Of a stretch of DNA of 64,000 bases, positions 8,696-58,525 are shown piece after piece (position 1 is the first letter of the stretch; the number at the start of each line of letters is the position of its first letter). Below the pieces are notes generated by a model, which saw only the letters and a program-made list of their open reading frames with translations, was not told where the DNA came from and ran no database searches. Both the position numbers and the translations under genes were made by a program. The DNA comes from Halanaerobium praevalens DSM 2228 (GTDB lineage: Bacteria; Bacillota; Halanaerobiia; Halanaerobiales; Halanaerobiaceae), in the NCBI RefSeq assembly GCF_000165465.1, contig NC_017455.1, positions 868,001-932,000 on the forward strand, in the 5' to 3' direction.

Positions 8696-9994
8696 ATGGT
8701 TAAAATAAAAAATATTATTCCAAATTCTACCGCTGCTAAAGCTGGCTTAAAAACTGGTGATAAAATAATTACTATTAATAATCAAAAAATTAATGATTAT
8801 ATAGATTATTTATATCAAATTTCAGAATCTATTATCAGATTAGAAATTGAAAATAAAGCTGGTCAGAAAAAAAATATTGAATTAGAAAGAAAACTTGGAG
8901 AAAAATTAGGGATAGAATTTAAAGAAATAGTATTTGATGGACTTAAACAGTGCAAAAATAATTGTGTTTTTTGTTTTGTCAAACAACAACCAGCAAATAT
9001 GCGCCAAAGTTTAAATCAAATGGATGATGATTATCGTTTTTCTTTTTTACAGGGAAGTTTTGTTACTTTAACTAATCTTAAAGATAAAGAAATTGCTAGA
9101 ATAATTGATTTAAATTTAAGTCCAATAAATATTTCAGTTCATACTACTAGACCTGATTTAAGGGTCCAAATGATGAAAAATCCTAAAGCAGCAGAGATTA
9201 ATAGGCTTTTAAAACTTTTCCAAAAGCATAATATTCAATTTAATACCCAAATTGTACTTTGTCCTGGCTATAATGATCAGGCTGAGCTGGACAGAACATT
9301 AGAAGATTTATTAAGCTTTTATCCTCAGATTTTATCGATTGGAATTGTTCCAGTTGGCTTAACTAAACATAGAGCTGGACTTAGTGATTTGAGAACTTTA
9401 ACTAAAAAAGAAATGAGCGATTCTTTAAAACAGATAAAGTATTGGCAAAAACAGTCTCATAAATTATATGGTGAAAATATAATTTATGCAGCTGATGAAT
9501 TTTATTTAACCACTGATTATCAAATTCCAAGTTATCAAGCTTATAATGATTTTCCGCAATTGGAAAATGGTATTGGATTAACTGCTTTAACTAATAAAGA
9601 GATGGATAATATTTCTTTTCCAGACTCTTTAAAATCCAAAAAAAAATTTGCTCTAATTACTTCTGTTTTAGGGAAAAAAGCTTTAACTGGATTTATCAAA
9701 AAAACTCAGAATATAAAAAACTGTGATTTTGAAATAAAAGTAGTATCTAATTCATTTTTTGGTAAAACAGTTACAGTTACTGGGCTTTTAACTGCTCAAG
9801 ATTTGAAAACTAAAATTAAGAAGTTAAAAATAGAAAAATATGATAAAATTTTTATTCCCCAAATTGTACTAAATGATCAACTCAGATTTTTGGATGGAAT
9901 AAAAAAAGAAGAATTTTTAGAAGAATTATCTGATTATCAAATATATTTTATAAAAAATATTAAAGAAATTATGGAGGTGATTAAAAATGGCTAA
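8696..9994 (+). CDS. DUF512 protein with PDZ and radical-SAM-like domain
   Basis: The 432-residue protein begins with a PDZ-like segment (IPNSTAAKAGLKTGDKI), then has CKNNCVFC, a CX3CX2C motif typical of radical SAM Fe-S binding (about residue 83), followed by a C-terminal DUF512 region. The enzymatic reaction is unknown to me. Start ATG 8696 follows AGGAGG at 8680-8685; the upstream in-frame ATG 8675 lies before that site. It overlaps der by eight bases. A DUF512 gene directly before der is a conserved Firmicute pair, hinting at a role in ribosome or RNA maturation; that role is inference. Confidence 0.85.
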   Translation: MVKIKNIIPNSTAAKAGLKTGDKIITINNQKINDYIDYLYQISESIIRLEIENKAGQKKNIELERKLGEKLGIEFKEIVFDGLKQCKNNCVFCFVKQQPANMRQSLNQMDDDYRFSFLQGSFVTLTNLKDKEIARIIDLNLSPINISVHTTRPDLRVQMMKNPKAAEINRLLKLFQKHNIQFNTQIVLCPGYNDQAELDRTLEDLLSFYPQILSIGIVPVGLTKHRAGLSDLRTLTKKEMSDSLKQIKYWQKQSHKLYGENIIYAADEFYLTTDYQIPSYQAYNDFPQLENGIGLTALTNKEMDNISFPDSLKSKKKFALITSVLGKKALTGFIKKTQNIKNCDFEIKVVSNSFFGKTVTVTGLLTAQDLKTKIKKLKIEKYDKIFIPQIVLNDQLRFLDGIKKEEFLEELSDYQIYFIKNIKEIMEVIKNG

Positions 9995-40989: not shown

Positions 40990-41264
40990 AAATAAATAAT
41001 ATAAATGTTTTGATAGGGAAGAGTAAATTTTGCTAATTGTTAAAAGAGAATTGTGTCATTGGCTGAAAGCACATAACTAATTACTAATTGAAAACCACCC
41101 TGGAGCAGATAGAAAGAATTAAGTATTTCTATTCGGTTAAACCGTTATCTTATTAAGTGAATATTGATTTTAGTATATTTATTTTTATAGAATATTAAAA
41201 TTAGTATTAACTAGAGTGGAACCGCGCAATCCGTCGTCTCTATAATGAGATGAGGGATTTTTTT
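40990..41264 (+). promoter_or_regulatory. T-box leader for thrS, specifier ACC
   Basis: The T-box sequence AGAGTGGAACCGCG is at 41213-41226. The specifier region reads GAAAACCACCCTGGAGC, which aligns with the pheS leader (GAAGTTCACTCTGGAGC) and gives codon ACC (Thr) at 41094-41096. A terminator stem (ATCCGTCGTCTC with GAGATGAGGGAT, then T run) occupies 41229-41264. Uncharged tRNA-Thr should allow read-through into thrS. Confidence 0.93.
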
Positions 41265-45699: not shown

Positions 45700-45719
45700 T
45701 AAAAAAATAATATAATAAT

Positions 45720-45967
45720 TAAAAGCTAAGAAAGAGAGAGTAACTAAAAAAATAAATTAAAAGAGATTAACTGCAGTAGCTGAAAGTAGTTAAATTTTAG
45801 ATTTTAGTGAAGTTCACTCTGGAGCTGAAGGCTGAATTTAAGTAGGCTTTTCCGGAAGTTAAAAGCTTTCGTTAAAAAAATAAGTGATCCTATTTTTTTG
45901 ATTATAATGAATAGGGTAATCAGGGTGGTAACACGGTATCTCGTCCCTTTAGGGCGGGATTTTTTTG
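45720..45967 (+). promoter_or_regulatory. T-box leader for pheST, specifier TTC
   Basis: The specifier region GAAGTTCACTCTGGAGC gives codon TTC (Phe) at 45813-45815. A T-box-like AGGGTGGTAACACGG occurs near 45922, followed by a terminator (CGTCCC with GGGCGGG, then TTTTTTT) ending at 45967. It matches tRNA-Phe(GAA), encoded twice in this window. Confidence 0.92.
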
Positions 45968-57155: not shown

Positions 57156-57212
57156 TAACAAACCTCCTATCAATAAAATATTATAACATAAAACAACTGT
57201 TTATGGTACCCC

Positions 57213-57241
57213 TTGTTAGTAATTAATCTATCTGTTATAAT
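57213..57241 (+). promoter_or_regulatory. Promoter of tyrS
   Basis: TTGTTA (57213-57218) and TATAAT (57236-57241) are 17 bases apart. The expected transcript start near 57248 lies after ATG 57245, so that ATG cannot be the tyrS start. Confidence 0.7.
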
Positions 57242-57256
57242 TAAATGACAAAGGAT

Positions 57257-57304
57257 ACAGGAGGTGAACTACCTGTTGCTAAAAATGAGGAACAGGTATT
57301 TTTT
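57257..57304 (+). promoter_or_regulatory. Candidate tyrS attenuator with alternative hairpins
   Basis: CCTGT (57272-57276) can pair either with ACAGG upstream (57257-57261), holding the AGGAGGTG site in or near a hairpin, or, as ACCTGTT (57271-57277), with AACAGGT (57291-57297), which is followed by ATTTTTT just before the tyrS ATG. The two hairpins exclude each other, as in an attenuator. No T-box motif is present. Seen in sequence; the function is inferred. Confidence 0.5.
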
Positions 57305-57326
57305 ATGGAAATTAATGAACAGTTAA
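57273..57326 (+). CDS. Possible short leader ORF overlapping the tyrS start
   Basis: Eight bases after GGAGG there is CTG then TTG, opening a frame of 17 codons ([16 protein letters not shown] or one residue longer) that ends at TAA 57324-57326, inside tyrS in another frame. The good ribosome-binding site otherwise has no start codon at normal distance. Translation is unproven, and coupling to tyrS is a guess. Confidence 0.3.
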
Positions 57327-58525
57327 AAATATTAAAAAGAGGGGTAAGTGACCTTATCTCTGAAGAAGATCTTAAGCAAAAATTAATTGAGGCTCAAAAA
57401 GAAAATAGACCTTTAAGAGTTAAATTAGGTTTAGATCCATCTGCTCCAGATATTCATTTAGGACATACGGTTGTACTGCGTAAATTAAAGCAGTTTCAAG
57501 ATTTGGGACATCAAGTTTATTTAATTATTGGAGATTTTACAGGCATGATTGGAGACCCAACTGGGAAGTCAGAAACTAGAAATCAATTAACTAAAGAAGA
57601 AGTTTTGGAAAATGCCAAAACTTATCAAGAACAATTTTCTAAAGTTTTAGATCCAGAAAAAACAAAAGTTGTTTTTAATGGAGATTGGCTAAAAGAAATG
57701 GATTTTGCTGATGTTTTAGAACTTTCAGCTCATTATACAGTTGCCAGAATTTTAGAAAGAGATGATTTTTCTAAAAGATATAATGCTGGTAAACCAATTG
57801 GGATTCACGAATTTTTCTATCCTTTAATGCAGGGCTATGATTCAGTAGCAATTAAAGCTGATGTAGAATTAGGTGGTACTGATCAGCGTTTTAATCTTTT
57901 AGTAGGGAGAAAGTTACAGCAAGAATATGGTCAAAAAGCCCAGGTTGTTTTAATGATGCCATTACTTGAAGGTTTAGATGGTGTTAATAAAATGAGCAAA
58001 AGTTTAGATAATTATATTGGTGTTTATGATCAGCCAGCTGATATGTTTGGGAAAGTAATGTCAATTCCAGATGCTATGATTATCCGTTATTTTGAACTTT
58101 TAACTGATATTTCAATTGCTAAGCTTAACGAAATGAAGGCAAAGTTGGAGCGTGATGATTTTAATCCAATGGAGCTTAAAAAACAATTAGCAGCTGAGAT
58201 AGTAACAGAATATCATGATCAAGAAGCTGCAGTTGAAGCACGCCGAGAATTTGAAAGTGTATTTTCTAAGGGTAATTTACCTGAGGATATTCCGATAATT
58301 GAAATTGCAGAAGCTGATTTAGATGCAGGAGAGCTGTGGATTGTTAAATTAGTAGCTGCAACTGGTTTAGTTGACTCTAATAGCCAGGCTCGAAGAATGA
58401 TTAAACAAGGTGCTGTTAGTATAGATGACCAAAAATATGAGAAAATAAATATAGATCTTGAAGTTAAAGATGGAATGATTATTCAAATTGGGAAGCGTCG
58501 TTTTGCTAAAATTAAATTAGTTTAA
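57305..58525 (+). CDS. tyrS: Tyrosyl-tRNA synthetase
   Basis: A 406-residue class I synthetase with the HIGH-type HLGH (about residue 48), [18 protein letters not shown], the tyrosine-binding QGYDS region and KMSKS (about 232), ending with an S4 RNA-binding domain ([16 protein letters not shown]). ATG 57305 matches the family N-terminus. Its own ribosome-binding site is weak (GAGGA, 13 bases away), and it follows a stem with a T run, which points to regulated expression. Confidence 0.96.

Follow-up and report, generated by a model that had tools for sequence, protein, structure and literature searches.

The window, a stretch of 64,000 nucleotides, belongs to the 2,309,262-base genome of Halanaerobium praevalens DSM 2228 and carries tyrS on the forward strand (57305..58525), encoding a tyrosyl-tRNA synthetase (TyrRS) of 406 amino acids with tRNA-synt_1b, SYY-like C-terminal and S4 domains. 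A sequence-only reading of the locus had placed a promoter about 60 bases ahead of the tyrS ATG, and we find it at 57213..57241 on the same strand, with TTGTTA (57213-57218) and TATAAT (57236-57241) separated by 17 nt, 10/12 matches and a TG extension before the second hexamer; promoters of similar type are recognisable in many Halanaerobiales tyrS loci. Transcription is expected to start at about 57247-57249 and, since the promoter ends at 57241, the leader would be about 57 nt long. Within it lie, all on the forward strand, a very strong Shine-Dalgarno (SD) sequence AGGAGGTGA (57259..57267), a hairpin with 5' arm TACCTGTT (57270..57277), loop (57278..57290) and 3' arm AACAGGTA (57291..57298), the two arms being defined by covariation and pair counts among the tyrS loci of the order, and a run of six T (57299..57304) that directly abuts the ATG at 57305. 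The strong ribosome-binding site and the six T had both been picked out in that reading, as had the motifs ACAGG (57257-57261), CCTGT (57272-57276) and AACAGG (57291-57296), and all are present. The string GGAGGTGATCCAGCC, which we take to be the complement of a 16S rRNA 3' end, occurs at four places in the H. praevalens genome in a pattern search. Folding of 57247-57340 (94 nt) yields -14 kcal/mol with a z of -1.97, and 9 of 200 shuffles fold equally well; on its own this energy is weak, and the case rests on comparison.

Upstream, the stretch from ahead of the promoter to the SD (57197-57266) is nearly fixed in Halanaerobium, with 64 of 70 positions invariant across 11 loci, including TATGGTACCCC ahead of the -35; in L004 the sequence differs on the pbp side and the conserved stretch is retained from CTGTTTATGG onward. 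It is possibly a regulator site common to tyrS and the divergent penicillin-binding protein gene. A frame from the ATG at 57245, which is upstream of the expected transcript start, is open in most loci of the genus, and an N-terminal extension of TyrRS from this codon was rejected, as a TAA stop interrupts the frame in L009 and the L012 frame is out of phase.

No T-box precedes this tyrS, as the sequence-only reading had also maintained: nothing there matches Rfam at gathering thresholds, and T-box model RF00230 at its gathering score finds none at the window tyrS or at the 23 other loci of the order that were scanned (L044 is not in this set, nor is L043, which is a named copy of L027). The same scan at gathering score recovers T-boxes at 8/15 tyrS loci outside the order (7/8 loci plus 1/7 loci). 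Six matches above cut-off are present in the genome (G000:C1 29299, 532776, 815719, 909001, 913719 and 1396436), none at tyrS; those within the window lie at 41001-41244 and 45719-45951.

We searched 38 Halanaerobiales genomes, 29 with a TyrRS at threshold and nine with no match, and could read 27 tyrS leaders, the two remaining loci lacking a 5' end. We find that 26 of these 27 leaders carry a unit in which short spacers separate a strong SD, a hairpin and, L031 apart, a start codon, with GGAGG in 25 of the 26 and GGGGG in L030; the sole exception, L026, lacks a hairpin, its TTG start lying 8 nt after GGAGG. An automatic scan with strict criteria for this arrangement recovers 23/27 tyrS loci of the order, missing L006 (interrupted stem), L026, L030 and L031, vs 0/77 comparison tyrS loci (L044-L120, nearly all outside Halanaerobiales), and 69 of those 77 have an ordinary SD 4-12 nt from the start. 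In L034-L037 the TyrRS is extended from an upstream start, and the SD and hairpin precede that earlier start, so that the position of the hairpin tracks that of the start codon. Locus L031 (~1366-1500) has a perfect 9-bp stem that encloses an 88-nt loop and is not followed by any usual start codon, an oddity that may be genuine or may reflect an error in the sequence.

Covarying stems in the tyrS leaders of relatives, proposed as a check in the sequence-only reading, are indeed found. Pairs 3, 4 and 5 of a 6-bp core are standard in 26/26 loci, pairs 2 and 6 in 25/26 and pair 1 in 22/26; pairs 3 (C-G) and 5 (G-C) are invariant in all 26, and parsimony gives at least 10 both-sided Watson-Crick changes at pairs 1, 2, 4 and 6 (1, 1, 3 and 5, respectively) on a maximum-likelihood tree of the TyrRS proteins in which several forks are weakly supported. 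Stem types include ACCTGT/ACAGGT, GCCTGT/ACAGGC, ATCTGA/TCAGAT, ACCTGG/CCAGGT and ATCCGG/CCGGAT. Pairs were counted by our own scripts rather than through a covariance model, because the 3' arms collapsed when 20 leaders were aligned with MAFFT. The loops are unlike one another, with neither sequence nor length conserved (3-17 nt, a figure that shifts with the stem boundaries chosen, but 88 nt in L031). Shuffling the interval between SD and start in 13 leaders gives p of 0.0005-0.08 for each, 10 of the 13 under 0.05, and a combined p of ~4e-14 over rows that are not fully independent. The comparison indicates that the tyrS leader stem is selected for pairing. A DNA operator formed by an inverted repeat that binds a dimeric repressor was rejected, the arm-to-arm loop of 4-88 nt being unlike a fixed half-site spacing.

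The hairpin and T6 had been read as a transcription attenuator that terminates ahead of tyrS unless ACAGG pairs with CCTGT, and both the T-run and the ACAGG alternative do occur in all 11 Halanaerobium loci and in L024 of a sister genus. Of 25 loci, only these 12 have at least five T among the eight bases that follow the stem; the other 13 retain the stem and lack both T-run and alternative, and in most other genera the bases between stem and start are A/T-rich without forming a T-run (e.g., AATA, CATAATA and GAATATAA). Stem and T-run are thus not kept together, and on this ground the attenuator was rejected as an account of the conserved element and strikes us as very improbable for tyrS, with a weak terminator inside Halanaerobium alone still compatible with the sequence. 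The 5-bp ACAGG/CCTGT pairing is also the less stable of the two structures in all 12 loci, at -4.0 to -6.9 kcal/mol vs -9.5 to -17.4 kcal/mol for the downstream hairpin. A terminator scan omits the tyrS site, but it caps loops at 8 and so is no test of a site with a 13-nt loop. What survives of the sequence-only reading is a compact tyrS element with a covarying stem where relatives often have a T-box, without its attenuator function.

A 17-codon frame (57273..57326, forward strand) that overlaps the tyrS start and contains a Tyr codon had been described as well, and it is there, running from CTG at 57273 to TAA at 57326 with TAT as codon 9; it was said to have no normal start codon, which holds for the opening CTG but overlooks a TTG in frame at 57276. 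The frame is not conserved as a peptide. It has 17 codons in 8/11 Halanaerobium loci, 11, 3 and 5 codons in the remaining three of the genus and 2-49 elsewhere, holds Tyr in 6/26 loci, and CCG replaces CTG in 5/26; a leader peptide that senses Tyr was rejected on these counts. Counting against a view of the stem alone, CTG lies 6-8 nt behind GGAGG in 21/26 loci, where a start codon would normally stand, and a CUG start is conceivable where CUG is present. We treat CTG as part of the stem because its C (pair 3) and its G (pair 5) never vary and the middle letter covaries with its partner. The same CTG figures in a further proposal, that the hairpin hides a second SD (AGGTG, in the 3' arm) which translation or melting would free, the upstream SD being a standby site or the start of the CUG frame. 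AGGTG indeed lies 6 nt ahead of the ATG in 8/11 Halanaerobium loci, but the window itself has AGGTA, L010 and L012 have AGGC, and no SD-like letters are seen in L028, L029, L032, L033, L037 and L039; nor is there a second SD in the 3' arm of the genus nusG and M20 peptidase genes described below. With CTG also giving way to CCG in those five loci, we hold a hidden second SD to be distinctly unlikely.

The spacing of the leader points elsewhere. Textbook initiation has the SD and start codon ~5-10 nt apart, and SD-to-start distances in 115 ordinary genes of the H. praevalens genome are 4-13 nt (mean 7.5, peak 7-8). In contrast, the linear distance from GGAGG to the start is 29-41 nt (mean 35.8) in the 25 tyrS loci with a measurable start, too far for direct use of so strong an SD, and becomes 7-16 nt (mean 12.4) in the same loci when the hairpin is excluded; the hairpin, conserved in 26/27 loci, would thus shorten the gap, and it occurs only where the gap is long. 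We conclude that the tyrS element is probably a split ribosome-binding site of the kind known from phage T4 genes 25 and 38. The ribosome would pair with AGGAGGTGA at 57259-57267 while the 29-nt hairpin (57270-57298) remains folded and bulges out, cutting the 40-nt gap between GGAGG and ATG to ~11 nt and allowing the ATG to reach the P site. Conservation and geometry suggest that initiation requires the folded hairpin, which would be looped out on the 30S subunit. Several observations count against this split-site reading: the hairpin-excluded mean of 12.4 exceeds the 7.5 of ordinary genes if weak A-U and G-U closing pairs are left out of the stem, most Halanaerobium loci hold AGGTG (3' arm plus the next base), a weak SD at ordinary distance, the fixed pairs 3 and 5 are not required by pure spacing, and the stem of L031 is followed by no usual start codon.

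The same layout is found ahead of several further genes. Scanning a sample of the H. praevalens genome revealed nusG (G000:C1:1860184-1860782; L164, L168), with AGGAGGTG followed by GGATTC/GAATCC arms and ATG, a GGAUUC/GAAUCC stem in the genus. Among 30 Halanaerobiales nusG loci (L168-L197), 25 have the hairpin and a linear gap of 25-33 nt, and the other five have no hairpin and a gap of 7-10 nt; together with the L026 tyrS, these five loci show that loss of the hairpin goes with ordinary spacing. In one genus (L189, L190, L191 and L193) nusG has an ordinary SD 7-8 nt before the ATG, which could be hidden by a predicted GGGCC/GGCCC pairing. Pattern searches returned two more genes: an M20 peptidase (G000:C1:1080543-1080584; L198 ~440-485, L202-L212), with GTTTAATAG/CTATTAAAC between GGAGGTG and ATG in 10 of 11 loci of the genus and stem letters nearly fixed (L210 begins at a contig end), and a gene for a 210-aa protein with no Pfam match (G000:C1:2175081-2175126; L214-L224), with a GC-rich hairpin from SD to ATG in 11/11 loci of the genus and a compensating change from CCTGGCC/GGCCGGG to CCTGACC/GGTCGGG. 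A putative ArsP-like permease gene, whose Pfam score is below cut-off, is a possible fifth case (L160 ~9800-9841), with GGAGG, an A/T-rich hairpin GTTTTTAAT/ATTAAAAAC and ATG. Counts of GGAGG-hairpin-start in the 1.264-Mb own-genome sample give 4 vs 6, 5, 0 and 7 for control codons, or 4 vs 1, 1, 0 and 2 at a score of at least 10, and a wider SD pattern in the same genome gives 8 matches vs 19 and 6 when two sets of control codons are used; the number of sites is near chance, and conservation carries the case.

A regulator may act on the hairpin. ThrRS at E. coli thrS blocks the 30S subunit, and the tyrS hairpin could likewise be an operator in place of the T-box, to which TyrRS, perhaps via its S4 domain, or some other factor binds to block the 30S subunit. 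This is in line with an S4 domain in TyrRS, with the invariance of pairs 3 and 5 in all 26 loci, and with T-boxes at just over half of the tyrS loci scanned outside the order and at none within it; thrS itself is described as a split ribosome-binding site whose hairpin is accommodated by the ribosome (PMC3936740). Neither the sequence nor the length of the loop is kept, however, and three unrelated genes share the layout with other stems; the lack of conserved loop letters and the different stems of nusG and the peptidase argue against a tRNA-like operator. Mimicry of tRNA-Tyr was rejected, since no likeness to the variable arm of the genome's own tRNA-Tyr is seen by eye. An operator is, in our judgement, doubtful as the explanation of the element. 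A regulator acting on the tyrS hairpin, for which TyrRS would be the obvious candidate, is possible and compatible with the split ribosome-binding site, which it would turn into a switch. A wider version, in which the hairpins of tyrS, nusG and the few other genes are conformational switches, on when the stem is folded and turned down when it is melted or bound, with KCl, temperature or a protein (TyrRS for tyrS) setting the rate, seems to us rather unlikely; if true, it would define a cellular family of gap-closing RNA switches, opposite in sense to structures that hide the SD.

The proposed split ribosome-binding site is a testable candidate for what takes the place of the missing T-box at tyrS. 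A covarying hairpin kept across a bacterial order in the SD-to-start gap of core genes such as tyrS and nusG suggests that folded spacers serve initiation in bacteria and not only in phage T4. A literature search over titles and abstract openings of open-licence papers turned up none that reports such a hairpin, located between SD and start codon, in a cellular gene. The loci would provide a natural set of variants for structural work on a 30S subunit holding a hairpin between platform and P site, and start-codon predictors could misplace genes with this layout.

The T-box (RF00230) is a common control of tyrS in Bacillota, as the scanned loci outside the order illustrate; in contrast, the Halanaerobium tyrS leader is ~57 nt long vs 219 positions in the model, which it does not match. 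The E. coli thrS hairpin lies upstream of the SD and binds ThrRS, unlike the Halanaerobiales tyrS hairpin, which lies between the SD and start codon. The two systems are alike in that a folded hairpin lies within the part of a synthetase mRNA that the ribosome occupies, as described for thrS (PMC3936740) and as predicted here for tyrS. Closest are T4 genes 25 and 38, in which SD and start are likewise far apart and bridged by structure, reported to reduce the distance from 22 to 5 nt in gene 38 and from 27 to 11 nt in gene 25, with weaker structure lowering initiation (PMC3014915). That account describes the gene 25 arrangement as kept only in close T-even phages (PMC3014915), unlike the candidate split sites of Halanaerobiales, which appear in chromosomal housekeeping genes, order-wide, with gaps of 29-41 nt and covariation in the stem.
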